Shown here: positions 5,438 through 56,416 of the stretch, piece after piece
Layout: each line of letters starts with the position of its first letter
Position numbering within the stretch: the stretch's first letter is position 1
Assembly: GCA_963920665.1 (NCBI GenBank)
Contig: OY987265.1
Coordinates: 43,777,001 to 43,841,000 of the forward strand
Source: Straminergon stramineum
Lineage: Eukaryota; Streptophyta; Bryopsida; Hypnales; Calliergonaceae
Direction of reading: 5' to 3'
DNA: 64,000 nt
Notes under the pieces: model-generated
What the model saw: only the letters and a program-made list of their open reading frames with translations
Told to the model about the DNA's origin: nothing
The model's database searches: none
Translations under genes and position numbers: made by a program

Positions 5438-6370
5438 TTAACCCCTAAAGTTCCTCGACTATGATTTCACCAAAAATGTTCCAAAACTACCATTTCTAGC
5501 ATAAGTACTAAGTTTAAGAGAAAAAGACATTTTTGAACACATGCAACTGTAGGATTTTACAGTAAGTTTTTTTGGAAAAGATGTGGAAAAAATTTCAGAA
5601 ACTTCCACTTTGTGGATTGCAAGATATTAACATTTGAAGTGACAAAAATCAGTTTTTTGGCCCTACAAATAACCAGGCAACAACACTTTAGAAAGTTACA
5701 TTTGTATGAAAAAATGTCCAAAATGGTGGTGCATCTTTGGATTCATTCTTTTAGGCAAGTTGGCTATATGCTTGAAAAATTTCGAATCATTTGGAATTGT
5801 ACAACATATAGGAAAAAAATAGTAAGTAGAAAGAAGTAGAGAATGGTTCAAAATACTAAATTGTCAAGAATTTAATTATGGAATTGAAAAATGCCAATCA
5901 CAATGGTTGTAATGTTCTAATAAACAATCTACATCCTATGATTTTATTTTTTTCAAAAAATATTTAAAATTGAGTTAAATAAAGGACTCCAAAGTTTATT
6001 GTAGAGTACAAATTTCATAACTACTGCAAACTAAAATTTCTCATAACTTTCATCTCATTGATCAAAATGGATTGATTCAAAGCTTTATCCATATATACAA
6101 TTCTAGAAAACCAATTTCAATTTTTATTTTGGAAAAAAGTGATTTTTTCTGATCTACCTAAGCTGCCTGAGTTGAGAAACAAATAACATTTTGCATCATA
6201 ATTTTTCACTTGTATACTCAAATGAAATGAAATTTAGCATGCCTGGAAGATATTCCTTGTCCACACCTTGTAAAAAAGTTTCAATCTAAATAAGTCCAAT
6301 CTCCAATCACATGTACCTATCCAAGATAGTTATGTTGCCAAAAACACAAGGCCGGTCCTTTAGGGGTTAA
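5438..6370. mobile_element. TTAA-flanked non-autonomous element A (933 bp)
   Basis: Begins TTAACCCCTAAAG and ends CTTTAGGGGTTAA, giving terminal inverted repeats of at least 13 bp bounded by TTAA. No coding capacity is visible. It is homologous over its whole length to element B at 34640-35579 in the same orientation. TTAA flanks with C/G-run termini are the hallmark of piggyBac-type elements, and a piggyBac transposase pseudogene lies at 37.9-39.8 kb. Other TTAA-targeting superfamilies (for example Sola3) cannot be excluded from termini alone. Confidence 0.8.
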
Positions 6371-15134: not shown

Positions 15135-15830
15135 TTAACCCCTAAAGGACCAAGCTGCATTTTTTAGCAACATAACAATTTCGGGCAGCTCGCTACAAAT
15201 GGAATTTTTATTTTTTGTCTTTGGAATTCTCACACAACATGTGCACAAGGAGTATCTTTAAGGCGCAACAATTTTCATAACTTTTGACTACATGGTTAAA
15301 AAGTTATTGCATAATATGTAATTTTCATTTGACAACAGGCAGCCCGGGCAGCTCAAAAAACTTCCTGAAAAATCACTTTAAAAAAATAAAAGTTTGCAAT
15401 TAATCCTCTCTATTTATATATATGCCAGAAGCTTTGAATCATTATATTTTGATTAATGAGATGAAAGTTATGAGGATTTTTAGTTTGAAAGTAGCTATGG
15501 TTTTCAAAGACTCCATGGCTACCCACAAACTAAAAATTAATTCCCACTTAGACAGAAATATAATCTACAAGAAAAAAATATTCAAATTCTTATTTCAATT
15601 TTTGCGGGTTTCTTTGTTGCCTAGTCTCCCCATTTTGAGGTAATTGTGGCATAACTTTTGCTCTCAATCACTAATTGAAATAATAATTACATTTATAGAA
15701 AGCTAATAATATTTTTTATCTCATGAGAAAGGTTTAAAAAGTTTTGGAAAAAATTGAGATCATAAGAAGCTGCTTGAAATCCATTTTGTGATTTTGTCTC
15801 ATGTAGGGACACCATGACTTTAGGAGTTAA
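15135..15830. mobile_element. TTAA-flanked element E (696 bp), chimera of two subfamilies
   Basis: Begins TTAACCCCTAAAGGACC and ends CTTTAGGAGTTAA. Its left half matches the reverse complement of the right end of element A ('gcaacataac', 'aaagctttgaatca', 'gatgaaagttatgag'). Its right half, reversed, matches the left end of element C ('acaaaatggattt', 'gagcaaaagttatgcca', 'ttatagattatattt'-like text). The switch lies near 15490-15530. It has intact-looking termini but no coding capacity. Confidence 0.75.
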
Positions 15831-23057: not shown

Positions 23058-24026
23058 TTAACCCCTCACCACACAAGGGGACCAAAAGTGTCCTTAGGTC
23101 AAATTCAAAGTGCTGTAACTTTTGCATCCAAAGTCCAAATTCAATAAAAAAAATTTGGAAAATTTGAGCTCTCTCTTTTAGTTTGTGTGGGAAAAGTTTC
23201 ATATCAATCCAAGATTTACTGAATTTTTGGAAGCCAATCAAAGTTCAGAGGTTCAATTTGAGTTCAGCAAATTGCATTTGATGGTTGCAACTTTGGGGGC
23301 TTGTATCTCCTTCATCCAAAGTTTGTTTTCAATCAAATTTGTTGTGTTATGTTCCCCTTGAAGTCTAGTTATTGTGGTAAATTTTTCATGCCAATCAAGG
23401 TTGTTTGGAATGTCTGGGAACAATTTGAAGTTCAAAATCCTGACATTTTAGGATTACAATGAACTTTGGCAGCTTGTTTCTTCCTCATACAATGTTCATT
23501 TCCAATAAAAAAATTTGGAAAAGTTGCGCATACTAGTCTAGTTTGTATGTCTAAAATTTCATATCAATCCAAGAAGTTATGAGTGGTTGAGAAGCATTTT
23601 AGTAGAAGGAGATTCAATTTTTGATGTATTTTGTGCAACTTTTTTTGCTATTTTTTGACATTTTAAAGTCATTTTGCAAACACAATGAATCAATTGAATG
23701 ATATTTTTTTTCATAAATGTGTTTTTATGCTGATTTTGAATCACTTTACATCTTAAGGTTTCTTCATTTGAGTAGATTTAGAAACTGAATTTTGCCTTCA
23801 AATGTATTTTTAGGAAAATTTCAGCATCCTTTTTCAACACTAAAACATTATAATCTTACAATCTATGCAGTCAAATGACACCAAATTTGGTGCATGTAAT
23901 CTACAACAAGTGCACTACAAGGTTGTATGGTCCAAATCTCTATAACTCAATGAAAGTTATATCTATAACACTTCAAAAGAAATGATGTTTTTTGACCTGT
24001 TCAAGCCTTGGGCAGTGAGGGGTTAA
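23058..24026 (+). mobile_element. TTAA-flanked element G (969 bp) with internal tandem units
   Basis: Begins TTAACCCCTCACCACACAAG and ends GGCAGTGAGGGGTTAA. The interior holds three diverged tandem units of about 177 bp. Each runs from a 'caactttgg..gcttgt..ctcc' phrase through 'caataaaaaa(a)tttgg' to 'tttcatatcaatccaag' (near 23196, 23378 and 23557). It is homologous over its full length to element H (55449-56416). No transposase-like frame is present, so the element is non-autonomous. Confidence 0.8.
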
Positions 24027-24252
24027 CCCTACAAGGGCCTAAAAGCACTTTGTAGCCATATAGTATATTATGTATTGGGTGTAATTTGATTAGGAAAACA
24101 TTGACCAAAAACTTTTCTGTACAAAGTAAATTAATGATCATGATAATGTGTAAATAAAAATTTATCATAGCTCATCTATTACACTACAATTGAATAGTTA
24201 TAAAGCTAAATACGGGTCATGTAGAGTGACCCCAAGGGCCTTTCAAGGGTAA
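24023..24252. mobile_element. Small TTAA element K (about 230 bp) abutting G
   Basis: Begins TTAACCCTACAAGGGCCT and ends AGGGCCTTTCAAGGGTAAA, an imperfect inverted repeat of about 18 bp. It shares the TTAA at 24023-24026 with the right end of element G. Its length matches that of element J (230 bp). Confidence 0.6.
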
Positions 24253-27122
24253 AGGTAACTACACCTAAACTCACACAAATAAACAATTCAGCATGGTTCA
24301 CATTATTATTGATTGAAAAACTCGTTGTGGGTCTTGTTCGTAGTCAAAAGGGGATTCAAGATTCTCTTAGAATGCATTTTTTGGACATTGTATGAATAAA
24401 CTATATAATATTTAAAGTGTTGAAAATAGTTGTTGGGATCACCGACTTTAGACTCTCATGAATAGTAGGAGTATGTTTTAGGCAACAATATAGAGATGTT
24501 GGTTTTAGAAAGAGGTCGAAATTAGATGTAGTTTCCTTAAAACTAAGACATACTTACATTTACAATGTTCGGGGGGGGCAAAGCAAAAAAATCTTCACAC
24601 GCATTCTAGTCAACTCATTTTTTTTGCTCAAAGAAAAAGCATATAGCTTCCTACTAGTATGCCCAAGGGGGGTCTATTTGAAGAGTAAAGTGTTATAGAG
24701 ATGTATACAAGGCCAATACTGGAAAGAGGGTTTATAATGGATATGTATATCTTAGTTATTCAACCATTACTTAGAGGGGGGAAACACATGAACTTTTTAT
24801 TTTATTTTACAAATGGTAAAATTTGGGAAATTTGAATTCATTTTTCAAATTGGAGATCCTGATTTTGTAAGGAAAATTCAAGATGAACCAAGTACAAAAT
24901 AGGGGTGTAGACTTTTTCATTTATCCCTGAGTGGTGAAAGTAAGTAAGATTTATTTTATTTATTTTTAATTCCCATATGTTGAAAGATAGCACCACTACT
25001 CTAAGCAACTCCATAAATTTTTTGCTTGGATTCTACTAATAATAAACAATCATAATTATAGCTCGAAGATATATGTTAATGAAGAATTTAATTGGGGTAG
25101 TATGATTAGCTATGTTTTGCATGCATGGGTAGCGAGGGATATCCTTTGTTTCTCATTTCAAAATTAGTTTCTTTTTCAAATGTTAGTATCAACAATTCCT
25201 TAGGTTTTGTGTTTCATTCTAAATGCAATTCAATGTCGATAGAAGTATTTGATGATTAATTATAAAAGGATGAGACGTATCACCAAGGTACTTTGCCAAA
25301 AATGATCTAATTTATGGACCTATATGTACACTCTTTATCTCCATAGCAATCTACAAAATAACCCATCAAGCATTGTTTAGAAATTGTGGTGGTACAAGGT
25401 TAACGTCCTAACACACTAGACAAAGAAGGAAAATTATAACAAATAAAACATACTGTCATTGGAACCACAATGATAACATGTAGATTGTATGAATAATAAA
25501 TGAACTTATTGAAGTATAGACATTTGTGATTTACCCCTTACTCTTACAATCATGGTCTTAATAAATCAAACATCAAATAAACTTTAGTATTGTACAAAAT
25601 ATATATTTACAAATGATGCAAATCTCACATGACTTATCCCAAATTGTTAAATATATCTAGTGGCCGAAGTTGGGCCTTTTGGTTCTTCATGAATTAATAT
25701 AAAATTGAAAAATCCTAAAAATAAATATAAGTTTGATTGAATTTTTGGATATAGAATCCATTTATTAAATCAATACAATTGGAGATTAATATGGAAATTT
25801 CGATAAATAACTAAATAAATTATGAACTATGAAAATAGAAATAAAGATAATAGGCTATATACCTTCAATACAATTATTATTTTCTAAATGAATGGGTCCC
25901 TAAATCTTCATGGTCATATGAGAGATGCAATTTTTTTGTTAAATTTTTTTTATCATGTATTTCAAGTCTCAACTCATTAGGTATTTGATCCATATTCCTT
26001 GGCATTTTCAATTATTGAATCTTTTTTCATTGTAGATATGCAATTTACCTCCAAATATTTGAGAATTTTGAGTAAAATTGAAATGGATTATAGTATATGT
26101 CAATCTCAATTTTTTCGAAGTATACATATATAAAACATTAAGTATAATTTTTAAACTGATATTGGTGATCAAAATTGTAAAAATCTTTTGAAGCCCTTGC
26201 CATATCATTATAGAAGCATTTAACTTTGAATTTTTTCCCAAATATACATTTTTTAATTTTTAAAACTCAAATTTGGAATAATGGACTAAAGCTATGAAAT
26301 TTTTTACATAGAATAATATGAAGTCTAAGTGTTTGATTAATTGGGTTCAAGTTACTAATTTACTTTTTTGCTTGTTGTGAATTTTGCCACAAAGACCCCT
26401 TTTTCATTTAATTTATAAAGAGCACAATTTACATGTATGAATAAACATTAACATTTAATGAAAAATAACTTTCTTGTACATTCAACGATGCACATCACCA
26501 TCTTCTTTAGAAGCTTCTACTTGAATGAAAATGAAAAATGAATGTGAAGATGGTTATAGAATGATACACATCTGTTCTATACAAGAACAAAGGTTTAACC
26601 TTTAAGGAATATTTCATATCCAAGCTTCATCAAACTTCATTAGATTTCTACATTAAAACACAAATTTCAAAATTTTGATATTTTTCACATACAATAACTT
26701 ATATCTCAAATCTGATATCCTTTTTCCATAATTTCAAACATAAAATTGAATTTATATGATTTTAAAAAGAAATTTTCTTGTAAAAATTCTTGTAATGACA
26801 AAAATGCTTTAAATGATATAAAATTGTTAAGAAAAATGAAAATGAATAGAGACAAATATTATGGTGTAATTTGATGTATTCCTTTAGATGACATCAAGAA
26901 AAATTCCATAGAAAAAGTTCAAAAGTGGTGTATTTTGAGTTTTCAAGATGCTATCTTTAAAGTGTCACAAAAATTACAATTTGATCAATTAAAAAACATG
27001 GATTAAAAAGTAGATTAATCAAGCTACATTTTCTTAGTTAAGCTTAAAAACATTTAGAATCAAGAATTGTGTGAAAATTCATGTATCAACTTTCAAAATG
27101 CCTGTAGGACTTGCAATGTCCT
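24253..27122. other. AT-rich intergenic sequence, nothing recognised
   Basis: Long AT-rich stretch without supported coding sequence. A lone 'ttaacctttaagga' at 26595 resembles a family terminus but has no partner. Confidence 0.5.
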
Positions 27123-28054
27123 TTAACCCCTAAAGGACCATTGTCCCCTCGGGGGACAAAATGGATTTCGGGTAGGTTCCTATGACCTCAATTTTTAGTC
27201 AAACTTTTTGAAACTTTCTTATAAGATAGAAAAACTGATTAGCTTCGTGGGAATATAATTTTTAATTCAATCGGTGCCCGGGAGCAAAAGTTATGCCATC
27301 TTAAACATAATTTTCATGTCACCGGGCAGAAAAATAAATCCACAAAAAATTGAAATTTAATTTTTTGATTTTTTTTTTCTTATAGATTATATTTTTGCCT
27401 ACATGTGAAGCTTTGATTCATTCCATTTGGATAAGTAATGTGAAAGTTATGAACAATATTGTTTTTCGGGCAATATGAGCATCTTCTTGAAAAAATAACT
27501 TATAGGATTCATTTCTGAATGCAATTTTCACAATTTTTCAAAAAACATTGTTTGACAAAGTTAAGTTTGTTTGCTAGAACAATCCCACCATTGGGATTAT
27601 TGAGTTTCCATCCCATGTCGAAGCTATTAAAGATTTATTTTTTCATGTAATCTTAGACCTACTTCTACTTAACAATTTTTTAGAGAATGAAAATCAAGAG
27701 TTTTTCTGTTGAAATTTTTTTCCTAGAATATCAACTCAATTCTTCAACACAAAAAATTTTTAATTCACAGTCCATAGTGCAAAAAATTTCAAGAAAAGGT
27801 GGTCAAAGTCATCTGAAATTGCAGGCCAGTGTTCAAAAAAAATTCTTTTTCCAACTTTGAATGCTAATATCTCTCAATCTGTGCGGTCAAAATTCATGAA
27901 ATTTTTACCACATGTTCTGAGACAAGTAAAGTACAAGATCCTCGGGTTAGATTTTCTTAAAGTATTTTTTTTGGATTTTATGGGTGAACGCAGCAGAAAT
28001 GGCAGTTTTGAGTGGTTTTTGACAGAAAAATGGCCTTGGTCCTTTAGGGGTTAA
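27123..28054 (+). mobile_element. TTAA-flanked element C (932 bp)
   Basis: Begins TTAACCCCTAAAGGACC and ends GGTCCTTTAGGGGTTAA, a perfect 17-bp terminal inverted repeat including TTAA. The perfect ends and its similarity to D and to half of E mark it as a relatively young copy. No coding capacity for a transposase. Confidence 0.85.
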
Positions 28055-30009: not shown

Positions 30010-30650
30010 GCTATATATTCTAGAAAATCCAATTATAGCCTTCTTACTTGAAGTGGTTGTAACTACCATTGGTCATCCTTGATTGTTAAGCTTGTGAAGT
30101 AGTAAAATGGCATATTTTTTCAACCAAAAGTGAATGCTTCAAAAAGAAATCACACTTTTCAAAATAAGAAAAAATATATACAAAGAAACATATCAAGAAA
30201 AACAAATTGGTTACAATTGTAACTATATCATTGAAAAATACTTCTCAATAGTGGTTTGTTGCATGCACCAAATTTGAAGAATTGTTAAATCTTTCCCAAT
30301 AACTTAGATTTGGAACTAAATTGGTGATGTTATTCAAGATGGTAGTAAACAAATTAAATGATTATGGTACACTTGAAAATTCGACTCATAGAAGTGTGAT
30401 AGATTGATAGATTTGAAATTTCAATTCATGGTGGTAGGTATAGAAGCCCATCACTTCTTTCCTCTCCTTCAATTACAATATTTACTAGTACCATTTCCTA
30501 GTGCTCAATGGCCTTAATCTACTCATTTCATGTACTAATTCCATATAAACATGATTATTTACATATACTATATACTAGTAGAAACACCGTGTATCAATAA
30601 AATTGATACAAATAACATTTGATGACAATGAATCTACACAGAAGAAAGTT
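30010..30650 (+). repeat. Tandem duplication, unit 1 (about 638 bp)
   Basis: Starts near 'gctatatattctagaaaa' and ends near 'gaatctacacagaagaa'. It is repeated almost base for base immediately downstream (30651-31325), including long identical stretches such as 'gatggtagtaaacaaatta'. There is no coding sequence in it. Confidence 0.9.
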
Positions 30651-31325
30651 ATATATTCTAGAAAACCCAATTCTAGCCTTCTTACTTGAAGTGGTTGTAA
30701 CTACCGTTGGTCATCCTTGATTGTTAAGCTTGTAAAGTGATAAAAATGTCATGTTTTGCTTCTTTTTTTTGAAACCAAAATGTCATGTTTTTTCAATCAA
30801 AAGTGAATGCTTCAAAAAGAAATCATACTTTTCAAAATAAGAAAAACTACAGACAAAGAAACATATCAAGAAAAACAAATTGGTTACAATCGTAACTATA
30901 TTATTGGAATATACTTCTCAACAGTCGTTTGTTGTGTGCACCAAATTTGAAGAATTGCAAAAATCTTTCCCAATAACTTAGATTTGGAACTAAATAGGTG
31001 ATGTTATTCAAGATGGTAGTAAACAAATTAAATGATTATGGTACACTTGAAAATTCAACTCATAGAAGTGTGATAGATTGACAAATTTGAAATTTCAATT
31101 CATGGTGGTAGGTGTAGAAGCCTGTCACTTCTTCTTTCCTCTCCTTCAGCTACATTATTCACTCGTACCATTTCCTAGTGCTCAATGGCCTTAATCTACT
31201 CATTTCATGTACTAATTCCATATAAACATGATTATTTATGTATACTATATACTAGTAGAAACATCGTGTATCAATAAAATTGATACAAATAACATTTGAT
31301 GACAATGAATCTACATAGAAGAGAG
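30651..31325 (+). repeat. Tandem duplication, unit 2 (about 677 bp)
   Basis: Second copy of 30010-30650. It is longer by about 39 bp because of an insertion near 30745-30795, where 'aaaatgtcatgtttt' is itself duplicated around a T-rich run. The low divergence indicates a fairly recent event. Confidence 0.9.
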
Positions 31326-34639: not shown

Positions 34640-35579
34640 TTAACCCCTAAAGTTTCTTGACTATGTTTTCATCAAAAACACTCTAAAACTACCATTTCTA
34701 GTACAAGTACCACATTTTACCAAAAAAAACATTTTTGGACACATATAACTGTGTGATCTTGTAGTATGCTAATTCAAAAAGATTTAGAAAAAAAATTCAG
34801 AAATTCCCACCGTGTAGATTGCAAGATATTAGTGTTTGAATTGACAAAAATCCATTTTAGGGCCTTGCAACAAATTGGGTTGCTACAATTCACAAGGTCA
34901 CATTTGTATGAAAAAATGTCTGAAATGGTGGTGCTTCTCTGGATTTGTTCTTTAAGGCAAGTTAACTACATGCTTGAAAATTTTGAGATCATTTGGAATT
35001 GTAAAACATATAGGAAAAAAAATAGTAAATAGAAAGAAGTTGAGAATGATTCAAAATATTGAATTGTTCATAATTTAGTTATGGAATTGAAAAATGTCAA
35101 TCCCAATGGTTGTAATGTTGTAATAAAAAATTTGCATCCTAGAATTTATTTATTTTTCACAAAATATGAAAAATTGAGTTAAATAAAGGACTTCAAAGTT
35201 GATTTTAGAGTAGAGATTCCATAATTACCCACAAACTAAAACTCCTCATAACTTTCATCTCATTGATCAAAATGGAATGATTCAAAGCTTTCCTCATATA
35301 TATAAATCTAGAAGACCAATTTGAAATTTTTATTTTTGAAAAAAGTGATTTTTTCTGGTTTGATAGGATTGCTTGAGTTAAGAAACATACATCATTTTGG
35401 ATCATAACTTTTCACTTGTATACTAAAATGAAATGAAATTTAGCACTCATGGAAGATATTCCTCGTCCACAGTTTGTAAAAGAATTTCAGCCTAAATAAG
35501 TAAGATCTTTGCTCACATGTACTTGCACAAAAAAATTATGTTGTCAAAAATACAAGGCCAATCATTTGAAGGTGTTTAT
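34640..35579 (+). mobile_element. TTAA-flanked element B (about 940 bp), degenerate right end
   Basis: Begins TTAACCCCTAAAG and is collinear with element A throughout, for example 'actaccatttcta', 'tttgtatgaaaaaatgtc', 'cataactttcatctcattg' and 'gatattcct(c/t)gtccac'. The right terminus has decayed to 'ggccaatcatttgaaggtgt'. It is clearly the same subfamily as A but older, or mutated at one end. Confidence 0.8.
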
Positions 35580-36213: not shown

Positions 36214-36884
36214 CTAATCTATACCTTAAATGAGGTTGTTTATTTTGATTTGTTTGATACAGTGAGATCTCCATAACCACGTGTCCCCAATTTTCATTTT
36301 TGGTAAAGTTGGAAAGCTCTTTGCAAGGAAGGGTGCATGGACTTTGTTTTGTAGTGTTTTGCTTACAACAAAAAAAGATTGAATTGAAAAAGAAATTGAA
36401 AAATGAAAAATGAAAAAATACTTGCACTTTTTTCTTATTTTGTCCATGGCAAAAACACAAGGCACATGAATTTCTTTTGAAATTACAAGGCAAAATAATG
36501 TGAACTCCCAAGAGCCTAAGTCTTGAGGGCAATCTTTAAAAAAGGGGCCTAGTTTGTCCTCAATTGTGTTATCTAGAATTCATCATCCAATCCAACTCTA
36601 CAAAATTAGGAGTTGGCCACCCTATTAGCTTGTTATACATACTAGAGTGCCTTATGTCATTGCCACAATATAAGAAAATAAAAGTAATCCTCTCATTTAT
36701 TTAATTTATAAAAATTTCAAACTTCAATATCTTTTTATTGTGAGTTGGAGTGCCAACAAACAAAATCCATGCAATCCTCCTCGTGGAGGTTTTTTCAATG
36801 GTACCAAGAATACAATTGGGGAACTCATGGTTACAGAGATTTTGTTTTAAGAAACAAAATGAACAACCTCATTTAAGGTATAGA
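36214..36884. mobile_element. Foldback-type inverted repeat element (about 90-bp arms)
   Basis: The left arm 36214-36305 is the inverse of the right arm 36793-36884. Both contain 'aacaacctcatttaaggtat' (or its complement), 'aattgggga' and 'tggttatggagat'-like words. The spacer of about 490 bp has no coding capacity. This looks like a miniature inverted-repeat element or a hairpin-forming duplication. Confidence 0.65.
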
Positions 36885-37605
36885 TATGTTGAATTGGGCA
36901 TTTCTTTGGCCATCGTAAATGTGACTTCAAACTATCTAAACCCTTAGTCAATGACAAAAAAATTAATTATTTTTTCATATAAAATTTAAAAATTCATTAT
37001 TTATTCACATGTGGTCCAAAAACCATATTCTAAAATTCAAGAATTCCTTATCACTTGCACTAAAAAACAAGTGAAATTTCATAATTTACTTCAATGTTAA
37101 AGCGAAACCTTACTAAAAAATTGACTGCTATAAGTATACTTACATTATAATCATTGTGAATGCATTGTGAATTCATTGTGAACTCACCTATTGATTGTGA
37201 CCTAAGGACATTAGTGCTGCACATAGTGACCATAAAATGTCCCACTTCTTCTCCTGAAGATTTTGGAGTTTTCTAGTTTATTCATATGGTGCCCAAAAAA
37301 TTATTTTCACAAGATTAAAAAAATATTCCTTTTACTCATTACACTCATATAAAGCATCTTTGAACCTAAATAATGGTAATCAGAACTGCCTTTAGAATAG
37401 AAATAGGCAAACTATAATTGATGAAGTGGAGAGTGGAAACCACAAATAATATGTATGAGTACTCAATTGAGATGTTCATGGCAAATTTGAAAGCATCTTT
37501 TGCAAAAGCATATAAATTTATTGCTATAAAGAGGCAATCTATCTTGGGCCTTCTTATGGGGAGGAGGGTTGCTATTATGTGACCACAGGGGTGAGCCCAT
37601 GAGCC
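36885..37605. other. Intergenic, nothing recognised
   Basis: AT-rich sequence. Three 'cattgtgaa(t/c)' words lie near 37155-37185. No gene is supported. Confidence 0.4.
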
Positions 37606-37815
37606 TAGAATACTATACACCTATTTTATAGGTGTATATATCATAGAAATCGTCTATGATTATAGGATATATATGTTACAAATACCCATATTATAGGTGT
37701 TTATGATACATACACCTTCTATAGTGTGTGGTAACTATATTATAGGTACCTATAATGTAGTCTCAATGCTCTAAGCTTGCATTCTTGGGCTCACATACTA
37801 GCACCGTTGGGCACT
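37606..37815. repeat. Palindrome-rich AT repeat (possible relative of 3.1-3.27 kb)
   Basis: Contains self-complementary words such as 'cacctattttataggtg' and 'attataggtacctataat', followed by 'gggctcacatactagcacc'. It lies just downstream of the transposase pseudogene and could belong to the element's 3' end, but no terminus was identified. Confidence 0.35.
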
Positions 37816-37849
37816 TCTATGAATTATATATGTTATTGTCTTCAATTGT

Positions 37850-39795
37850 TTCCAACTAGAGCTTTACACAATTGAGTTCAAAACTATAAATGTGTCATAG
37901 GATGGCGAGGAGAGTCACAATCCTTGCATTTGTCCAAATAAATGATGTACATATTCACTATACTTGTGTCAATGAGAAAAAAAATTATTGCCACCACCTA
38001 TACAATTGTTTTTGACATGTATGAAAGGCATGCAATTGATTTGCAACATCTATGCCATGCATGTGAACTGTACATTTGTGGGTTTGAATGTTGTCTTGAA
38101 TTGATCCATTGCATTGTGGTACCAATACCATTGGAAATTGCCTCTAAAATTAAATGGGCATAGCATGTGTAGAAATAATGAAGATCAACTTTCTATCTTT
38201 CTATAAAATAAAATTCTCTTGCTTGGACTCATGCATATGACAATCTAATATTCCTTGCGCATGTTTATTGAATGCCTTGGTATTTTTCAAAACATCTAGT
38301 AGGCCTACTTGATTATATTGAACAGTGCATGTATCATATGTTCCTCTATACAATGATTCCTTAAATAAGGCAAAAGATGGATAAAAATTGTCCATAGTTC
38401 TTATATGGCCCTTGCTCTTGTTTAAAGATAGTCTATGCAAGAATACATTCTAAGCTAATCTTGCCTCTCCATGACCCCCTTCATGTGGTGCATGGGCCTC
38501 TTCTACTATGGGAATTTTATCACAATAAGCTTCAAAATCAATAAATTTTTTGATAACAAATATGTGAAGTACTATATATATATTAACCCCATTTTGGGAG
38601 CTTCTAGGGCATATATTGTCATGCGTGATAGTATTTGCCATTGTAACAAATCATTGTTTCATCCATAGTAGCGAAGTTTCCAACATTCCATGACCTTGGA
38701 CAACTACTACAAATGGCATCAATGAATGACCTCGCATGGGCTATTTTGTTATAACTCGGCATTGCCCTATCTTTCTCATATCTAATGGGATTGGTAATGT
38801 GCAAATACTTTGTCAACAATACAAATTGAGATTGAGACATGAAGTTTGAGATATTGGGACAATGAAATATAATAAGAAATCTTCATGCGCAAATTTGATT
38901 TTATCTCGAGTTGGCACTTCATGCCCATGTATAAAATGATAGCCACGGAAACCCTCAATTTTGGTACAAAAAGGTACTACTAATTTGGACCACTACAAGT
39001 CCCACCATCCACATTGATTCAATCACATATTGGTTCGTGTTAGCACCAATGCGATGCCAAAATTTGTCAAATAAGTTGAAGAAAGTAGGAAATTGTTTTT
39101 TTATTAAATATTTGATCCATATGGTCCATCAAAAGTTTTGGGCTCCATATTATATGTAATAAATGTCTTATTTAATGTGGAATTTCAATTCAAATGTTTG
39201 ACACTATTGACATTTCTAGGCAATTTGTCATCATCATTGTCTTTATCTTCATTGAAACCCAACTTTGCATAATATAGTTCAATATCACTCCCAAGTACAT
39301 TGTGCAAGGAAATTTCATTATTCCATATTTTAGTCATTTTCCCTAGGAAGAACATACCCAAGTGTTTCCATATGAACCCTCCCAGTATGGTCATGCCCAA
39401 CTCCATCAAAATCACCCATAGGCCAAGAGAAATCGCCTCCACCCCTATCAACATGCACCCCAAAACCATCAATATAACCTCAAGCCCCATGACAATAAGC
39501 CCCCATTGATTCTTCTTGATCTATCCTAGCCCCAATCTCCCCTTGCCTCCTAAGGCAAGATATGATTGACAATTTAAGGGTTTGCGCTAGACTAAAATGG
39601 GCAAGGTTGGAGGGGGCTAAGTTGCCATATCCAACACCAAACTGTGAACCTTGACTAGGTTCTCACCAATTCTAACAGCATCCTCGCCGACCCCATTGTT
39701 GCCAACATCTCCCACTTGTTGTCCTTGTTTGCTAGAAGTGGAGCTCCCTAGTACTCCAACACTGCTACAATCCACCATCATTGATTCCCTTTTCT
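37850..39795 (-). pseudogene. piggyBac-family transposase (DDE_Tnp_1_7), broken copy
   Basis: The minus strand encodes, in order, most of a piggyBac-type transposase in pieces separated by frameshifts and stops. About 39795-39640 could be an acidic, low-complexity N-terminus (weak). 39110-38830 has pieces resembling the helical pre-catalytic region (TFFNLFDKFWHRI, ILYMGMK). 38840-38640 contains MSQSQFVLLTKYLHI and MDETM (first catalytic Asp, 38652-38666), followed by YNGKYYHA, a TGA in place of Arg, and QYMP. 38641-38450 has KWG and DFEAYCDK. 38440-38201 has TMDNFYPS (second Asp, 38390-38392) and RGTYDTCTV. 38200-38000 has the GIDVANQL motif (third Asp, 38048-38050) and RWWQ. 37975-37889 has VNMYIIYLDKC. 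The three Asp motifs, their spacing and the DNFY/GTV/GVDxxDQ signatures fit this family well. At least five in-frame stops and three frameshifts make it non-functional. The TGA from a CGA context fits methylation-driven decay. Confidence 0.88.
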
Positions 39796-40935
39796 TTTAT
39801 TGTTTTCTTGAATTGAATCAGTGAATTGTAAGCTTAAGAAGAGTGTTGCAATTTTGGTGGCTACGAAAGCTCTTCTTGGATTTTTAACTAATCATTTGCA
39901 TACTCTCCTTCAAAAATCTCATCTTCCCCTAATTTGGCCTTCACAAGAAAAGTCGCTCCCTTTTGTCTCTTGTTCTTGGCTATCAAAAAATTTGTGGTCA
40001 TACTTGCCTATATCTTCTCCATTTCCAGGCTACAAATTCTTTTCCTCTCAAAATGGTTAGGAAGCTACATGCAAGGGTGTTATATAGTCCAATTTTGGAA
40101 TTGTTGTAGGTGTAGATGGAGGGCTACGGGGAAATGGGAGAGGATCATTAGACATTGAAGCTTGTCATGCTAACAATTTGAAGTTGAGCCTTAGAGGTAG
40201 CCCATTCCAAGCAATCTACAAAAGAGGAAAAACAACTTGCATGAGAAATTTGAATTGTGTGCATGAATTAGAAAGAAGTTGAAGAGAGAAGAGAAACACA
40301 CACTCCATTGCTCTTCAAAGTGAATCTCCTTCTTGTCATGGCTTCTCAACTTCTACCTAATGTAGCACAAATTCTCCTTCTTATGTTCAAGCTTCTCATT
40401 GTAGATTCATATGAGAGTAAACAATGTCATGGCAAGTTTGAAATTCCTCCCTTTATCCATTTTCTTCCATGATGAGGTAGAGGAGGTGAATGTAAGGCAA
40501 TTTTAGGTGGATTGACAAATAGGTGTGCCATAACTAGTGTAGTGGGGAGAATTTTGTCTTGAACTATAAAAAAAGGTGGTGTTTTCAAGCTCAAGGTAGT
40601 TGCATTTCTTAATGTTGTTTTAATTAGGTAGATTGCCAAGCTTGGTTTGTATTTGACTTTGAAATTTCATTGTATATGGCAAATATGGGCTACAAAAATT
40701 TATTATGATTGTAGAAGAGAACAAAATTTGAAGTTGGACTCTTCTTTCTTTGGGAAATTTGTGTTAGGGTCTCCACTATAATTTTAGAAATTGACAAGAC
40801 TACAATCTTTCGAAAATAACAAATTTGAACTTGCAAGTATATGTGATCCACAAAAATGAACATACAAGATTTTTTAGTTGCTAGAAGTTGCTTTGCAATT
40901 GATGCAATACACAAATGTGTGAAATCCTATGCATG
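39796..40935. other. Intergenic, nothing recognised
   Basis: Upstream flank of the transposase pseudogene. No TTAA-CCC terminus pairing with a downstream one could be found, so the limits of the autonomous element are unknown. Short frames here have no family resemblance. Confidence 0.4.
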
Positions 40936-41075
40936 TATGCCTATGCTCACTATCGAAGGTTCAATGCCCTCTATCCTGATTGATGGTCTCACTGCTCTCC
41001 GATTGAGGGTTCCATTGCTCTCTCTGATTGATGGTCTCATCACTCTTCCAACTGAGGGTCGATTGACAATGGCTG
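40936..41075. repeat. 48-bp imperfect tandem repeat
   Basis: 'ctgattgatggtctcac' recurs 48 bp apart (about 40976 and 41024), with 'gattgagggt'/'aactgagggtc' and 'tccattgctctc'/'tcaatgccctc' in register. This gives about 2.5 units of 16 codons. Frames stay open on both strands across it. It could be a fragment of a repeat-bearing coding region, but no product is recognised. Confidence 0.6.
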
Positions 41076-41544
41076 CAAGGGGTTGGCCGACCTGGTCCTC
41101 TACCTGCACCAACTACCTAGCTTCCTTCCATCTTGTTGCCCCTTCTACCTCCCCCAAATAGAAGTCATGGCCAATTGACTTGCTTGCCATGCCCGCCGTG
41201 CCCCACAAAGTGCAAATTCTCCAAAGGTTGCAATACTTTTGAACCAAAAATTCAGTTGTCATAGAAATTATAATCCAAGTGAAAACTCTTTTAGAGAACT
41301 CTCTATCCTAAAAACATTACCAAAAGTTGGGTCAAACAGCTCAATAATACAATCCTACCCATATTCCATTTTGTTCCCCGAGGGAACACTGGTCATTAAT
41401 GGACATATTGAGCTTAGAAACAATCTTTGAGGAAAAAAACACAATGAAAATGATCCTTGCGTGGTTAATTGTTCAATGAAAACAATAGTTCCATACTAAA
41501 ACACCATTGCAAACTTACCCATAACTTAGCATTCAAGATTATAG
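41076..41544. other. Intergenic, nothing recognised
   Basis: No supported coding region or repeat boundary. Confidence 0.4.
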
Positions 41545-47525: not shown

Positions 47526-50500
47526 ATGGCTGGTGCCCAGGCCCAGACCGTTTCTCCGAGTTCTCTTCTTCTCCGCGGCTCGCCAGCGGGCAATGTCAAT
47601 GCCCTGCCCAACGGTGGTGGTGCGGGACCTTCCTCCGGGCAGTTGCCCTCCCTTTCCCTCGTAGCAGGCCGGCGGGCGCAATTTGGGGGAGTCAACATGC
47701 TGGCGGGCTTCTCCAACAACCCTTTCCTCAATGGAGGGTCCAATCCCGGACTCTCAGGTGCGTTTCTGTCCGTCCGTTCTGCACTTGCTTGGTTGCTCTT
47801 TGCTCAAGGTTGTGGATGCTGGGAAGCATGTGAACCAATATGGTAGCTTGGAGTTGGGAGATCACTCAAGAGAGATCACTCAAGAGAGATCACTTGGGAT
47901 TGTACGAGAGGAAAACTCTCTTTGTGATCAAATTTTGCATCACTGAATGGATGAATTTCTTCTGCAGTTTCAAAGGGGGAGGTTATGGATCACTTTGAGT
48001 GATAGTGGATGGATGTTCCCATTTCTAGGCAAAAGACCGGACATGCTTACATTGCTAATTGAAGGTTTATTTAGTGTATGAAGAGATGAGAGTTGCTGTT
48101 GGAAACAGAGGTCGGTATGGCGGGATCTTAACGGTTTGGGTGTCCTTTTTCCTTAGAGCTTACCACCAACAATGCTGCAGTTTCTGTTCTGCGTAGTTTG
48201 CTGAATGATTGCTATTTGCTTGTCTTTTGCAGGTATTCCGCAGAGCTTGACTGGGACTGGAAACTCAGGATTGAGTGTCGGTGCCACCTCTTTGATTGCT
48301 GGCTCGAATTCCGACTTCCCTGATCTCCAGCCGAAGAACATGCCCGTGGCCTCTGAATCGCTTGCACTCTCTGGTTTAGCTGGTATGGGGCTGCCGACTT
48401 CACCGGTGTCCATCTCTTCTACCATCGTGAACTCTATGGTTAATCAACAAGGAAACTCGTCCCTCTCCCGATTAGAGCAGCAGCAGGTAAGCTGCTCAGT
48501 ATTGTGTGCATTGCGAGTGTTCCAATTTCTTTTGCATTTGCTTTTATCATGGATTTCCTGGTATGTACTGTTTTTTAGAGTTGTATTGTTTTGCTGCAAG
48601 TTTGGACAATCAACGCCAAAGATGGGGTTTGCCATACCCGTAGTCATGTTAGCACTGACATTTAGTTGACATACGGAGGGTGATCAGTTTTGCATTGCAC
48701 CATGTTGAACTTTGAACGACACTATTAACAGTGCTTTCCAAGCTGTTTTTGTCTTGTTTCCTACTCGGCATGTTACATGGCCCAGCTATCGATGTTAAAA
48801 TTCCCATGGGTTGTTTAGCTGACTCGGTTCTTGTTCTTTATACAGTGTTGAGGGTTGGCACAAGACACTAATTGAAAATTGTATACTGTGTTATGATGAG
48901 CCTGAATTATAATCAGGGCTTTGTGGATATCATATCTAATTTCTTCAAGAGTTGTTTGTGTCGTCTGCAAGATTAGGGGTGTTTATTGCTCGTGGACTCT
49001 AACTGCGTGACTTACAGGCTCCGCCTTGTTTGTGCAGGATTTATTGCTCCAGCAGCAGCAGGTGCGCTCCGCTACACCTCCATTGTCCGCGACGGCTCAG
49101 TTGTCCCAGTTGTCCCACCTCACGCAATCCATGCATCAGGATAGATCTCTACAAGCCTCGCAGCAAATAGCAGCTGGCCAGCAGACTGTTGGACTTTCCA
49201 GCGGGGGTAGCTCACAGCTTCTGGGCGTGGGTGGTAATCCACAGGCCTTGTTGTTGGGAGGTGGATCACCACAGATTAACGGCTTAGGTCCGAGTGGTAA
49301 TATGCAACAGGGCAAGTCGAGTGGGTCATCTCCACAACAAACCCTGGGCTCAGTGAAAGTAGAACCCCAGTCGTTGGTGGTTCACTCCTTACAGCAGCAG
49401 CAGCAGCAGCAGCAGCAAATTCTGATACCAAAGATGGAGGTGAAATCAGAACTGGACTTCGATCAGAAAGTAAGCACTTTTGATTGGCTCGTATGATTTG
49501 AACGCGGGGTAGTTCTATGACTTGATAGCTTGCGTGGTGGTGTGTATATGGTTTGGAGTTGGTGATTTCAGCTTTCTCTTGCATGTGGACTAGGTATAGA
49601 TAGTGATGTGTACCGCTCTTGTAATAACAAGTACTTGGATTTTGACGATGGCCCGTCAGATGGGACAGCACACAATGCATCAAGCGAGGTCTGGCAACAA
49701 TCTGGGTCTTACACAATCGGAAATGCAGTTGCAAGAAGTGCTACTGCAGAGGCAGTCAAAGCAAATGCAGGCTCAATTTAGTGCTTTGCAGCAGCAGCGA
49801 CTACTGCAAGGCCTCCAGCCGCAGCAGCATTTGCATGACACGGCCAGCTTGCAACTGCAGCAGCTGCACCAGCACCAGCATCACCAACAACTCCAGCTCC
49901 AGCAACAGCAAGCTAATTTCTTGCAGTCTGCTGGTCAGTGCGCTTTCTTTTTTTGGGCGAGTACCACTTTTTATTTGCTTCCTGATGAGTATTCATCGGT
50001 CTATTAGAGTGCTCATTTCTTGAATGGAAAAACAGCTATTTTCAAATGGAGAGTTTGCTTTCATTTGAAACTGTAGCTAAGTTTCACTAAATGCCTGGCT
50101 GCCACATGGCCATGTAGTTTTGTTGATTGGTTGAAGGGTCATGATTTTGTTGTAGTGTCTTCATTATTAGATGTACTCGGCAATGTTTACGACAACTGGA
50201 ATATTCCTGGTCCTTTGGAAATTTCATCGACTTTTCTGGTTTGTAACTACGCGATGTTCCTGTTGCTGCATGGAACTGATTGGAGTATTTTCATCTCTAG
50301 GTGTTAGGAAGCATCCAGATTTTGAGGCTGGAGGATGTGCGAGGAGACTTATGCAGTACTTGTACCATCAAAGACATCGACCTCCTGTGAGTAATGTTAT
50401 CTTACCTTGGCTTTCGATATTGTCCAATGCATCTCGTGGTCCAACTATCTCTTTTCAAAGTTTTTAAGGCTATATCAATCGTGTTTAGTCTCATCGTTTG

Positions 50501-53500
50501 TTTTAAATACAGTACCTTCTGTAGAGACCTTTTTAGAAACTGTCATTAGCAAAGGGAAACTAAATTGGGGCATGGTTTTGCTTGATGAATTCAGGACAAC
50601 AATATTGCTTTTTGGCGAAATTTTGTTGGCAAATATTTTGCGCCAAATGCTAAGAAAAGGTGGTGTGTTTCCCTATATGTCAGTGGTGGTCGTCAACCCA
50701 CTGGGATTTTCCCACAGGTATTGATTTTGATCACGGTTTTGTTTACAATAAAACAGGTTCTCTAGAAATAGTTTCTGAGTCCTTTTTGAATGAATCATGG
50801 CCATGACTTTTCTTCAGTTCTGTTACGATAAAAACTCGTTATGAATTTTGTTGTGTCTTCCACGACTGACAGGTTTGTTATGTCTACGGCTAATATGTTA
50901 TTTTAACCTTCAAGTGCCCATGTATCCCAAAGCGGTTGCTTCCATATCTATAGGAGTAAAAGAAATTATTTAGAAAGCGTAAGGAAGGTAACAAAATGCA
51001 TCAATAGAAAGAAGAAATCTTATTCCATATTTTTGAACGACAGATACTATAATCGACCATTAGCTTCCAAAGTGGACTTTCTATTTTAGCTTGGGCCCTT
51101 CCGGGTTAAGGTGGGTGAATTGAAGATTGCTCACAAGTTTGTGCTACTATGGTTCTGTCAGGATGTTTGGCACTGCGAGATATGTGGGACCAATCCTGGT
51201 CGAGGTTTTGGTAAGCTCGAAATCAATCTCTCCTCTCCAATGTAACTGTATTTGTCCGTTTGGCTTAATCTTGACAGACTGTTCGCGACTTTAGGAAGTA
51301 AAGGTTTTCCTTCGCTTTTACTGAAGTTTTCCTTGGATCCGGGTGTGCGCAGAGACGACAGTGGAGGTACTTCCAAGGCTGTTCAAGATCAAGTTTGATA
51401 GTGGCATACAAGAGGAGCTTCTGTTTGTAGATCTACCCCACGAGTATCGCCAAGCTTCTGGACACATGGTGCTAGAATATGGCAAAGCCATTCAGGAAAG
51501 CGTTTTTGAACAATTACGTGTTGTCCGGGAAGGGCAATTGCGCATTGTATTCTCTTCAGAATTGAAGGTGACCACACCTCCTAATGACTCCATCTCTATA
51601 AAATGTGTAACAAATTTATCTGCCGTGGTGCTAGAGAAGGAGCCTGCTAGCGGCCACTTAAAATTTGCTGTGAATTTAGATGACACTATTTGTTTCACTT
51701 TAGCCATTGAAGATACTTGGGAGTGTGATTTTGGGAGATGTAGAGAGCTGTGGAGAGATCTTCGTTTGAAAGGAGCCAGACCTATTGAGAAAAAGTTTTC
51801 ATGCATGAGTATCTTACGCAATTTAAAGTGGGAGGCTGTAGACCACTTTAAGTGAGCGTAGGCAACCCTGTTTTCATTCAAAGATCAGTGGCCATATGCA
51901 TTTAGCCAAGTCATGCTTACACCCAACTTTTTAATTAAAGTCCAATTACGTATATGAATAGATGTGTTGCTGTTGGTTTTGGAGTTGGTATGGGATCAGG
52001 TCCGTAACTATTTCAGTATCCACTAGCTTAGTTGGGAGCCATAGCCTTTATTTGAATGAAACATTTGCGTTCGTTCTGTATGAAACATTCATGAAGGTTT
52101 TTTTGTCGTCGCAGATATTGTCTTGGGAATTCTGCGCTCGGAGCCATGAAGAGCTCCTGCTTAGAAGGCTCATAGTACCACAGGTATGTAGCTCTTGTCA
52201 CCGCTCATTTGTGCAGTAGTTATCTTTTTGATTTATTATACGAGATGAGAGGGGTTAATCGTGAGCTCAGATCCATTTTTGAAATCAACACCATAATTTG
52301 ATTCAGTTCAGAAGTTTTCTTGTCTGAGATCACCTTTTATGTTCAGGTTAACCAGCTAGCACAAATTTCTCAAAAGTATCAGAATTCACAAAATGGTGGA
52401 GCAGGAGTTTCAGCTCAAGATCTTCAAACTAATTGCCATCTGTGAGTTTATCTTCTGTTTCCAAGGCTCTGTGTTTTGAGAACTTGATTGTCCCATTTTA
52501 AGACCGTGCTTTCAGTAATCAACGAAAAGTATGCACAGGGGAACGATTAGTATGAACCATGCTGTACCGGCGTCAATAGAATCAAAGTCAATTTGTCAGA
52601 GAAGCCGGCGTGGAAATGAAACCTTTGCTCATTCTTGGCGATATTTTTATTGAATATTAGGTGTTGATTGTCGAGTAGAGGAGTCAGGATTGAAGTGAGT
52701 TTGCGTTCACTCTGGTCCACAATCTAGAAACGCCTTCAACTTGGGTTCATTTGGGTGCGTTTAGAGGGGACCCTTGTAGGGTAATTTGGGGTTTGTGCAG
52801 TCAGTTTTGTCTGCTGATATTAGCATGCCACGCTCTTGGTTTCCTGCTCGCGGGACGGCTGTAAGTTGTCCCAGGGTGCTGACAACAAGACTTTGTTGTG
52901 GAAGGTTTGTGACTAGCGCTCGGCAGCTTGCTAAGAATCTGGAGCTGCCAACTGTCAACGATCTTGGCTACACCAAGCGCTATGTGCGCTGTTTGCAGGT
53001 ACCACGACAAGCTAATTTCCCTATAGAACGAAGTTTGGCTGTAGATCTACTTATACATTTTGATGATAACGACCATGAATACACTAACACTGGTTATTTG
53101 TGTGCAGATTTCTGAGGTTGTCAACAGCATGAAAGATCTCATAGATTTCAGTCGTGAACACAGTGTGGGGCCTATAGGTACGGCTCCTTCTCATCAACGC
53201 TGGCTGTTACCTATTCTGATGTATTATGGTGGTCTCTCTTGTTGGGTTGCCCATATATTATATCAGCTTTGGGAGTTAGAACTTCGCTCAGTAGTGTCTT
53301 GCTTTGAACTTTTGACCAAGCTTGGTCATGGCACTCTTTGTGCAGCAAGTTTACACAAGTTTCCTCGGAGAAGTGATGGAAGTAGTCGTACCATGCTTCG
53401 GAATGCACAAATAAGGGCCCTTCAAGAGCAACAAGAACAACAGCAGCAGCAACAGCAGCGTCAGCAAGAACAGCAGCAGCAGCAGCAGCAGCAGCAACAA

Positions 53501-54712
53501 AGACAACAAGAACAGCAGCAGCAGCAGCAACAACAAAGACAACAAGAACAGCAGCAGCAGCAGCAACAACAAAGACAACAAGAGCAGCAGCAGCAGCAAC
53601 AAGAGGAGCTCGACCTTCACAGCCTTCTAGCAGACACTAACACGACTGCCCTCAGTGGCTTACAGCAGCAGTTTAACGACGCGACTCACCTGGACAGTCA
53701 AACTGTGGATGGCTTAGATGAAGCCATCTCCGCCCCTACAGAAACTGACCCTCTGAGCTCCTTCTTTCAGTCTAACTCTTTAGCAGCCTTACAAACTTCG
53801 CTCCATGACACCCTCCAATCCCCAGTCCCTCACTCAACCCATGTGCAGAACAGCAGCAACCCTCTAGGAACAACTACCTTACAGCAGCAGCAGCAGCAGC
53901 AATTGTCTTCAGGACGAGCTCTTTCTGGCTCTTCTCCTACCAATTCCCTCTCCTCATTTCAAAATTCTTTCCCCTCCATTTCCGGCGGAGGCGTGGTTGT
54001 GGGTGGCCCATCCTCCGGCCCTTACTTACGAGGCGAGTCCTCCCAACAAAATATGGTAGTAGGGGCTGCTGCAGCAGCAGCTGGCAATGTACTCCTTCAA
54101 CAACAATCCCAGTCCAATCCTCAACATCAAGCCAACAATTCAAATGTTCATCACCTTCTCCAAGAGATGATGATCAACCAACAGCTTAACAACTCCCCCA
54201 CCCCCGCCGTTTCGTCACTACACCAAGGTCTGGGCGGCGGCAGCAACAACTCCAACTCCAACAGCTTGAATGGAAACCTGTCCAACTCTCTTGCAGGAAA
54301 CTTAGGTCTCAATCCGGGAGGAGGCCAAGTGCGCATGCTGGGAATGGGATCCAACAACTTGAACGGGTTAGTAAACAACCATCATCTAGGTGTGATGAAC
54401 AACAGCAATAGTATAGACAGTCTGGTGGGAAGTGGAGCCATTAGTGTAGGAGGAGGCAGTAGTCCTGTGGCGTTGTCAGCTCTTGGAAATCACACCCTCC
54501 GGGGAGTGGCTGGGGGGACGACGGCCTTGGGAGGGTTAATGGGCAACATGAACGCACACAATGCGAGGTTGAATCTCGCGGCCGCCGTGGCGCAACAACA
54601 AAACCAGCTGCAACATGACCTGGGCCATCCTTCCCTCCACCACGATTTGGGGGGGAACAACATGTTGGGAGGGCTGGGCATGACAGGCTCCTTTGGAGGT
54701 CTCTTTAACTAG
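47526..54712 (+). CDS. SEU: SEUSS-type transcriptional adaptor (LIM-domain-binding family)
   Basis: SEUSS proteins are nuclear adaptors that bridge LEUNIG-type co-repressors and MADS-box partners. Thirteen coding exons fit in phase: 47526-47757, 48233-48486, 49038-49469, 49660-49933, 50301-50386, 50595-50717, 51162-51210, 51353-51567, 52115-52183, 52347-52441, 52905-52998, 53108-53177 and 53346-54712, giving 1,119 aa. The start ATG follows two in-frame TAG codons directly. The N-terminus is G/S-rich with NPGLSG. Q-rich segments lie at about 275-290 and 307-397. The Ldb/LID domain (about 405-664) carries ARRLMQYLYHQ, FWRNFVGKYFAPNAKKRW, DVWHCEIC, VEVLPRLFKIKFDSG, SWEFCARSHEEL, NDLGYTKRYVRCLQ and SEVVNSMKDLIDFS. 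HKFPRR follows, then a Q array (about 692-753) and an N/G/S-rich tail. Family motifs are in order, so the identity is very secure. The exon 4 acceptor is the least certain junction. Confidence 0.95.
47845..48125 (+). repeat. Intron repeat family 'GATCACT', copy 1 (SEUSS intron 1)
   Basis: Contains 'gagatcact' three times, then 'aactctctttgtgatcaaat', 'catgcttacatt', 'attgaagg' and 'agagttgctgttgg'. The same words in the same order occur in introns of the second gene (61050-61400, and 62675-62970 inverted) and partly in SEUSS intron 8. It is probably a non-coding dispersed element of about 300 bp. Confidence 0.65.
50903..51109. mobile_element. Small TTAA element in SEUSS intron 6 (207 bp)
   Basis: Begins TTAACCTTCAAGTGCCCA and ends GGGCCCTTCCGGGTTAA inside the intron 50718-51161. 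It fits the terminus pattern and size class of elements J and K. It ends about 50 bp before the exon 7 acceptor, so it lies close to the splice signals. Confidence 0.6.
51830..52025 (+). repeat. Intron repeat family 'GATCACT', partial copy 2 (SEUSS intron 8)
   Basis: 'gccaagtcatgcttacac', 'aattaaagtccaatta', 'gatgtgttgctgttgg' and 'gggatcaggtccgtaact' match 61270-61400 ('gccaagtcatgcttacac', 'gatgtgttattatg', 'ggatcaggtccctaact'). The left half of the element is missing here. Confidence 0.65.
53428..53612 (+). repeat. In-frame 36-bp minisatellite encoding a Q/R/E array in SEUSS
   Basis: About four copies of a 36-bp unit ('agacaacaagaacagcag' near 53498, 53534 and 53570), each coding RQQEQ followed by about seven Q. 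CAG and CAA codons are mixed, so it is more than simple CAG slippage. Length change would come in 12-residue steps without frame loss. It lies directly after the Ldb domain and the HKFPRR motif. Confidence 0.85.
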
Positions 54713-55317: not shown

Positions 55318-55452
55318 AAAACCCTTGAAGGATGTAGGCTCCCATGACCAAGGTAGTCACCAAAATACTTTGATTAGTGGGACCAGCAGGTGCATTTTTG
55401 ATTCTACATCATCCATTTGACACTTTTGGTCCTTTGCATCTTTAACCCTTAA
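55318..55452. mobile_element. Small element X, copy 1 (left flank of element H)
   Basis: Runs from 'aacccttgaaggatg' to 'ctttaacccttaa'. Its body 'cccatgaccaaggtagt', 'gaccagcaggtgcattt' and 'catcatccatttgacac' recurs at 56413-56554. Ends of this style are related to those of element J. Confidence 0.6.
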
Positions 55453-56416
55453 TCCCTAAATGCCCCAGGGGACCAGAAGTGTCCTCACATAGTTTCAAGT
55501 CCAATTCAAAGTATTGTAACTTTTGCATCTGATGTCTGAATTCAATAAAACTTGTTGGAAAATTTGCACTCTCTTTTCTAGTTTGTGTGATAAAAGTTTC
55601 AGATCAATCCAAGATGAAATAATTTTTTGGAAGCCAATTGAAGTTCTATATGAGTTCACCAAACTGCATTTGATGGCTGGAACTTCGGGGGCTTGTATCT
55701 CCTTCATGTAATGTTTGTTTTCAATAAAAAATTTTGGGTTTTGTTCCCCTTGAAGTCTAGTTATTGTAGTATAATTTTCATGTCAATCCAAGATGTTTTG
55801 AATGTTTGGGAGCAATTTGGAGTTCAAAATCTCGACATTTTTGGATTACAATGAGCTTTGGTGGCTTGTTTCTTCTTCATACAATGTCCGTTTCCAATAT
55901 TTTTTTCTTGGGAAAGTTGCACATACTAGTTTAGTTTGTGTGTCTAAAATTTCATTTCAATCCAAGAAGTTATGAGGAACTGAGATGCATTTTAGTAGGA
56001 GGTTTAGGTTTTGATGTGATTTTTGCAACTTTTTGTGATATTTTTTTACATTTCAAAGTCATTTTGCAGACACAATGAGTTCATTGAATGATATTTTTTT
56101 TCAGCAATGTGTATGAACAATGGTTTCAAATCACTTTATAGTTTAAAGTTTTTTCATTTGAGTAGGTTTAGAAATCAAATTTCACCTCCAAATGTGTTAT
56201 TAGGAAAATTTCAGCATCTTTTTTCAACACTAAAACATTATAATCTTGCAATCTATATGGCCAAATGACTCCAAATTTGATTCATGTCATCTACAACATG
56301 TATACTACAAGATTGTATGGTTGAGATTTCTATACCTAAGTGGAATTTTGATCTATAACACTTCAAAAGCAATGGTGTCTTTAGACCCCTCAAAACCTTG
56401 GGCTTTTAGGGGTTAA
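55449..56416 (+). mobile_element. TTAA-flanked element H (968 bp), same subfamily as G
   Basis: Begins TTAATCCCTAAATGCCCCAG and ends GGGCTTTTAGGGGTTAA. It is collinear with G (23058-24026) and has the same three diverged internal units of about 177 bp, each ending in 'tttca..tcaatccaag'. It lies about 740 bp past the SEUSS stop. Non-coding. Confidence 0.8.

Follow-up and report, generated by a model that had tools for sequence, protein, structure and literature searches.

What is a piggyBac-type transposase doing in the genome of a land plant? piggyBac is best known from animals; it serves as a standard tool for work on animal genetics, and both animals and ciliates have domesticated genes derived from it. 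The transposase of this superfamily cuts its element out at TTAA and reinserts it at TTAA. The locus considered here lies in a stretch of 64 kb (hereafter the window; C3:43777001-43841000) of an assembly of 326 Mb in 59 contigs, and the original prediction placed a piggyBac transposase pseudogene at 37850..39795 of that stretch. Three questions follow from it: whether the copy is what it appears to be, whether it belongs to the plant, and what other elements of its kind the genome holds.

The catalytic and downstream motifs named in the prediction (MDETM, TMDNFYPS, GIDVANQL, WW and VNMYIIYLDKC) are all present when 37-41 kb is translated. They occur in order on the minus strand in two frames, and the third frame supplies the linking piece between them. 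We traced the transposase along a best path of six segments (Table 1), the borders of which are our choice; these segments hold nine stops in 480 codons. The expectation that six-frame translation would reveal the Pfam domain DDE_Tnp_1_7 held for pieces of the copy and failed for whole frames: six whole-frame read-throughs of 37.0-41.0 kb gave zero Pfam matches, whereas the fragment at 38882-38622 matches DDE_Tnp_1_7 by itself (29.3 bits, E 6.8e-7, cut-off 22.4). The fragment at 38449-38204 falls below the cut-off both alone (E 0.039) and joined with the next piece (E 0.025), and the remaining four transposase fragments have no match to this profile. A composite of 397 aa, built solely from letters of the DNA and with each stop or join written as X, matches profile positions 12-347 of 349 (62.4 bits, E 5.9e-17); none of three controls (two shuffles and one reversal) does so. 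We considered another DDE superfamily for the composite and rejected it: DDE_Tnp_1_7 is the sole profile reported at E<=10, in keeping with the original expectation that no other would match better.

Table 1. Coordinates of features in the window, numbered from its first base.
Feature	Position	Strand	Basis or remark
Remnant of one piggyBac element	37272..41397	-	DNA homology to the complete L017 copy, contig C2
Decayed piggyBac transposase	37854..39337	-	Six reading-frame segments over three frames
Transposase segments	39337-39110, 39113-39012, 38964-38866, 38861-38586, 38587-37988, 37988-37854	-	Best path
First catalytic Asp segment (MDET, aligned with D268 of piggyBac)	38586..38861	-	Structure alignment, joint alignment
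Second and third catalytic Asp segment (TMDNFYPS = D346, GIDVANQL = D447, WW)	37988..38587	-	Alignments
Probable remnant of C-terminal cysteine-rich finger (C-X4-C-X4-H)	37469..37519	-	tblastn with P0121 residues 442-458
Nested high-copy repeat inside the element, ~248 bp	37563..37810	-	Length absent from L017
Non-autonomous piggyBac element, 933 bp	5438..6370	+	Perfect TTAACCCCTAAAG ends
Non-autonomous piggyBac element, 696 bp	15135..15830	+	One mismatch in one end
Non-autonomous piggyBac-type element, 969 bp	23058..24026	+	Variant ends TTAACCCCTCAC
Non-autonomous piggyBac element, 932 bp	27123..28054	+	TTAACCCCTAAAGGACCA ends, resembling L017 ends
Non-autonomous piggyBac element	34640..35567	+	82% to 5438-6361; far end degenerate
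Non-autonomous piggyBac-type element, 968 bp	55449..56416	+	Directly 3' of SEUSS; 81% to 23058-24026; two mismatches in one end
SEUSS gene (exon pieces)	48205..54709	+	LIM_bind matches, homologs, tree

In protein searches, a hand-joined query of 341 aa had no protein match (204 candidates). The longer composite query found one protein at E<=10 (725 candidates scored in a 5.8-billion database), P0121 from the JGI metagenomes, which is 40% identical over 91% of the query (E 1.7e-71). Searched back against the window by tblastn, P0121 gives collinear pieces over 39006-37854, the best of which scores 122 bits, against 26.6 bits at most in 100 dinucleotide shuffles. The same search picks out the 17 residues that we regard as a probable finger remnant (E 0.38 alone); their placement rests on collinearity and on the shared strand, and the spacing of their closing C/H residues recurs in related open reading frames.

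We then compared the copy with solved transposases. Among these structures the composite best matches the piggyBac transposase 6x67 (E 0.00037), followed by the piggyBat transposase 9c0f (E 0.1). In the alignment to 6x67, MDET, TMDN and GIDV fall on D268, D346 and D447, respectively; the D346 piece is in register, yet scores just -1.3 bits by itself. PDB entries 6x67 and 6x68, which we take to be the piggyBac transposase of Trichoplusia ni, thus share with the window copy the Asp triad and a DDE-type core. The fourth residue of interest, D450, is important in piggyBac. A joint alignment gives the window copy Asp at all three triad positions and Asn at D450, a residue that L022, L025 and L031 also have at the latter place; across 41 rows (40 genome loci and P0121), Asp is conserved in 40 at D268, 38 at D346, 40 at D447 and 37 at D450. 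The homology of the transposase and its catalytic residues are clear from these alignments, and the profile match of the composite, with its triad aligned to 6x67, supports the original reading, by which a land plant carries the pseudogene of a piggyBac transposase.

The kinship is nonetheless a distant one, because P0121 matches the piggyBac transposase at E 1.1e-21. The window copy differs from that enzyme in being dead and in carrying Asn in place of D450, and complete relatives of the copy differ from it in having a longer N-terminus and an element of about 6 kb. piggyBat has the same core and motif order as the window copy but is likewise distant, clustering with piggyBac on long branches away from the rows of this genome. 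piggyBac itself has a TTAA target and a C-terminal cysteine-rich finger (in part from passages of PMC8086355), and both features recur in relatives of the window copy.

Those relatives are numerous. The assembly contains at least 118 matches to DDE_Tnp_1_7, all above the cut-off (116 scored of 473 candidates), and 14 of the 118 among the matches listed have no stop inside the match; 14 control genomes gave none. P0121 has at least 88 matches in the assembly, at 32-57% identity (86 scored of 679 candidates), and among the matches listed these relatives are spread over contigs C1-C11. Forty of the 88 loci were fetched for alignment, tree and end analysis. Nine open frames chosen from these 40 loci (417-840 aa) were tested, and all nine carry DDE_Tnp_1_7. 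Seven of them also have a cysteine-rich C-terminal stretch closing with C-X3/4-C-X4-H, preceded by C-X2-C-X5-C in L012, L040 and L046 and by C-X2-H-X5-C in L015, L016, L018 and L021; the open frames of L048 and L030 have a C-terminal end without such a stretch. P0121 has the same domain and finger as these elements and an open frame, and comes from a separate source.

Complete elements are among them. L018 (6,323 bp) and L015 (6,431 bp) are 97.5% identical over 6,434 bp and lie at different sites with differing flanks. Both have TTAA plus CCCCTAAAG ends on both sides, reading TTAACCCCTAAAGGACCAGACTGC at one side and TTAACCCCTAAAGTTCCTTCACTA at the other, and the limits of their alignment fall within one base of TTAA on both sides. 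Their open reading frames of 810 and 840 codons confirm the forecast that intact relatives would exist elsewhere in the genome. Copies of the same family part from each other directly after ...CTTTAGGGG-TTAA. TTAA on both sides with inverted ends starting CCC was read at both ends for L015, L018 and L017; in further copies single ends were read, followed by unrelated flanks. Of the 40 loci fetched, the one nearest to the window copy is L017 (73.7% identity over 1607 bp), a complete element of 6,045 bp on contig C2 with the same kind of ends; L017 is also the only other family-level copy in a DNA search of the genome (40 scored of 1722 candidates). It has both ends and two stops inside the match, against nine in the window copy. 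At L017 coordinates 3500-4880, in its 3' non-coding part, lie degenerate repeats, to part of which the window copy aligns. Elements of this kind probably move by cut and paste, and the near-identical pair suggests that they have done so recently. Among the genome loci compared, we found no empty site with a single TTAA. A repeat common to L046 and position 24023 of the window was tried as an empty site and rejected, because it is a small element with TTAA ends of its own.

To place the copy among its kin, we built a transposase tree from the 40 genome rows, P0121, the window copy and two animal chains. The window copy pairs with L017 (100/99), then with L022 and L009/L010. The genome rows form several deep clades, with P0121 among them (95/94). 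The two animal chains lie outside, on branches whose length draws a warning from the tree program. Because it has only two outside rows, the tree does not distinguish descent from transfer. Horizontal transfer into this plant lineage, in place of descent within plants, would concern the origin of the element and not its nature, and we hold it to be possible but doubtful. Reports of piggyBac in plants are sparse, and the single protein found at E<=10, albeit by a decayed query, would suit such an entry; against this, one genome spans the whole range of identity to P0121 given above for the matches listed and contains several deep clades, so that any entry must have been old or repeated. Scans of viral contigs and of genome contigs found none encoding a relative.

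The genome also carries short elements with ends of the same kind. Exact copies of the 13-base end TTAACCCCTAAAG number 12,296 in the assembly (6,166 + 6,130), and the same letters reversed, used as a control, occur 37 times (12 + 25). Among the first 100 ends listed, which cover the first 2.9 Mb of C1, 18 pairs face inward within 3 kb and one faces outward, and 11 of the 18 inward pairs span 913-958 bp. If these 100 ends from one stretch of C1 are typical, about 10,000 elements would keep at least one exact end; short copies apparently number in the thousands. Within the window, ends with three mismatches or fewer number 53, against 25.7 expected and a maximum of 41 in 100 shuffles. Six such elements are placed there (Table 1), a lower bound for the 64 kb, and six otherwise anonymous repeats of the window are thereby recognised as piggyBac-type elements. 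The ends of one of them, the 932-bp element, match those of full-length L017, at 95% over the first 63 bp and 75% over the last 303 bp. Searched against the genome, this element returned at least 41 rows (40 scored of 7694 candidates): itself, 39 essentially full-length copies at 95-98% and one partial copy at 77%.

When the window is compared with itself, the strongest and the third strongest pairs of similar stretches are formed by these short elements. A stretch at about 8939-9813 is probably an eroded relative of the 932-bp element (69% over 691 bp), with a two-mismatch end at 9813 and a worn end near 8940. The small element shared with L046, about 231 bp long, lies at 24023-24253 of the window, where its far end is eroded, and at 849-1079 of L046, and has TTAACCCTA... 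ends. In the window its neighbour is the 969-bp element and in L046 a different element, with one TTAA common to both neighbours each time, as if elements inserted at each other's TTAA.

How much of the element remains at the locus is clearest from L017. Collinear blastn pieces between the two run over 41397-41184 (69.6%), 40557-39804 (68.3%), 39417-37849 (73.7%) and 37561-37272 (69.8%), so the interval first proposed is too narrow. At the 5' side the alignment ends about 10 bp before the expected terminus; at the 3' side no terminus was found by alignment to L017. The best pair of TTAA and terminal inverted repeats around the copy agrees at 9 of 16 positions, a value reached in 71% of 500 random sets. 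The outermost bases of the copy are gone, and neither its terminal inverted repeats nor its target duplication seems to be preserved. The nested repeat within the remnant recurs in at least 38 other places on many contigs at 91-94% identity (the whole query had 1722 candidates, of which 40 were scored).

Several further observations concern this part of the window. The nested repeat has palindromic AT-rich stretches and short inverted ends. Adjoining the 3' side of the remnant is an inverted repeat of about 250 bp (36217-36465 against 36647-36885), 70% identical and 94% over the outer 34 bp, which may be a separate foldback element. Farther off, 30012-30648 and 30650-31325 form an adjoining tandem duplication, 88% identical. 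Rfam gave no match on the window. Over 37854-39113 the observed/expected ratio is 0.30 for CpG and 1.48 for TpG+CpA, and in the SEUSS region the values are 0.53 and 1.29; the pattern in the copy fits decay by deamination of methylated C, as would be expected.

Does the copy belong to the plant? The first exon piece found for SEUSS, at 48205, is separated from the transposase by about 8.9 kb and from the edge of the homologous stretch by 6.8 kb; neither distance is quite the 8 kb first given. Pieces of this gene best match Physcomitrium, then Diphasiastrum and Sphagnum (120 of 1297 matches listed). A tree was built from 18 rows, of which 17 were selected among those 120; in it the window groups with two Physcomitrium rows (100/99). 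The host is most likely a moss outside Sphagnum, a placement that is likely rather than proven because neither liverworts nor hornworts are represented in the tree. Contamination, or a chimeric contig, would mean that the stretch derives from an organism associated with the plant (animal, fungus or oomycete). Contamination had been named as one of the outcomes that would overturn the prediction, and this explanation is very unlikely. The nearest protein found does come from a JGI metagenome, and piggyBac is best known outside plants; yet relatives lie on contigs C1-C11, exact ends occur by the thousand genome-wide, and elements of the same kind flank the copy on both sides, at 5-35 kb and at 55-56 kb, the latter just 3' of a SEUSS gene that groups with Physcomitrium. 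Further, the CpG depletion of the copy (0.30) is like that of the intergenic DNA of the window (0.295).

A domesticated host gene with introns, in place of a dead transposon, would account for the survival of the catalytic triad despite the decay. It is highly improbable: at three of the five frame changes the segments overlap, by 4, 2 and 1 bases, and at the other two they lie 4 and 47 bases apart, which is too short for ordinary introns, the reading frame is broken by nine stops, and the homology extends over non-coding element DNA to 41397. Assembly errors in an intact gene, which the overlaps or gaps of 1-4 bases at four of the five joins might suggest, are equally improbable in view of the long open frames that relatives have in the same assembly, the stops that accompany the indels, the nested insertion and the eroded ends.

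We therefore read the window copy, with a probability of roughly 95%, as a dead copy of an autonomous cut-and-paste transposon of the piggyBac superfamily in what is most likely a moss. Its ancestor would have measured about 6 kb, with TTAA-CCCCTAAAGG at its ends and a single transposase gene encoding a DDE_Tnp_1_7 core and a C-terminal cysteine-rich finger. This element would have inserted at a TTAA and then decayed as it gained stops, small indels and the nested repeat and lost its ends. Short derivatives with ends of this kind would have multiplied, apparently into the thousands, their movement presumably driven in trans by the transposases of complete relatives.

The original prediction held that piggyBac is little reported from land plants. 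Reports are indeed sparse, but plants are on record as hosts: passages of two papers list piggyBac-like elements in fungi, plants and metazoans (PMC8086355) and as isolated from insects, fungi and plants (PMC10813416). A repeat table for C-fern gives 1,230 PiggyBac copies totalling 122,417 bp (PMC6890710), and a table for Stipa gives one copy of 75 bp (PMC8319324). A passage in a review of MITEs includes piggyBac among angiosperm MITE superfamilies (PMC10004981). These are non-autonomous and assigned to piggyBac, like the short elements of the window, to which we liken them by description and not by sequence; that passage of the review mentions no transposase for them. For mosses, the word piggyBac is absent from the main text of papers on Physcomitrium transposons (PMC7466625) and on Pohlia (PMC9247546), Fontinalis (PMC9631980), Pleurozium (PMC6723128) and Sphagnum (PMC9946827). 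A passage of the Pohlia paper puts DNA transposons at 23.68% of that genome (PMC9247546), and in the text seen of a Niphotrichum paper "piggybacking" is the sole match to the term (PMC10619864). No description of moss piggyBac elements was found in the literature searched, which includes few subscription journals and so does not prove their absence from print.

In itself the window copy is an ordinary, dead member of a known superfamily. Its setting is most likely a moss genome with a large and diverse piggyBac population that, judged by its sequences, has been mobile recently. On balance we favour, with some reserve, a wider reading in which piggyBac would have radiated in mosses on a large scale, with great diversity and recent mobility. 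There would be many autonomous families, each about 6 kb long and bounded by TTAA-CCCCTAAAG, together with thousands of derivatives of about 930 bp moved by them. piggyBac would then rank among the major DNA-transposon groups of a land-plant genome, a situation that we did not find described in the literature searched. A moss genome with complete, near-identical elements would offer a natural land-plant system for the study of piggyBac control, of the amplification of short derivatives and of horizontal transfer. piggyBac, a kind of transposon best known from animals, appears to have thrived in a land plant.
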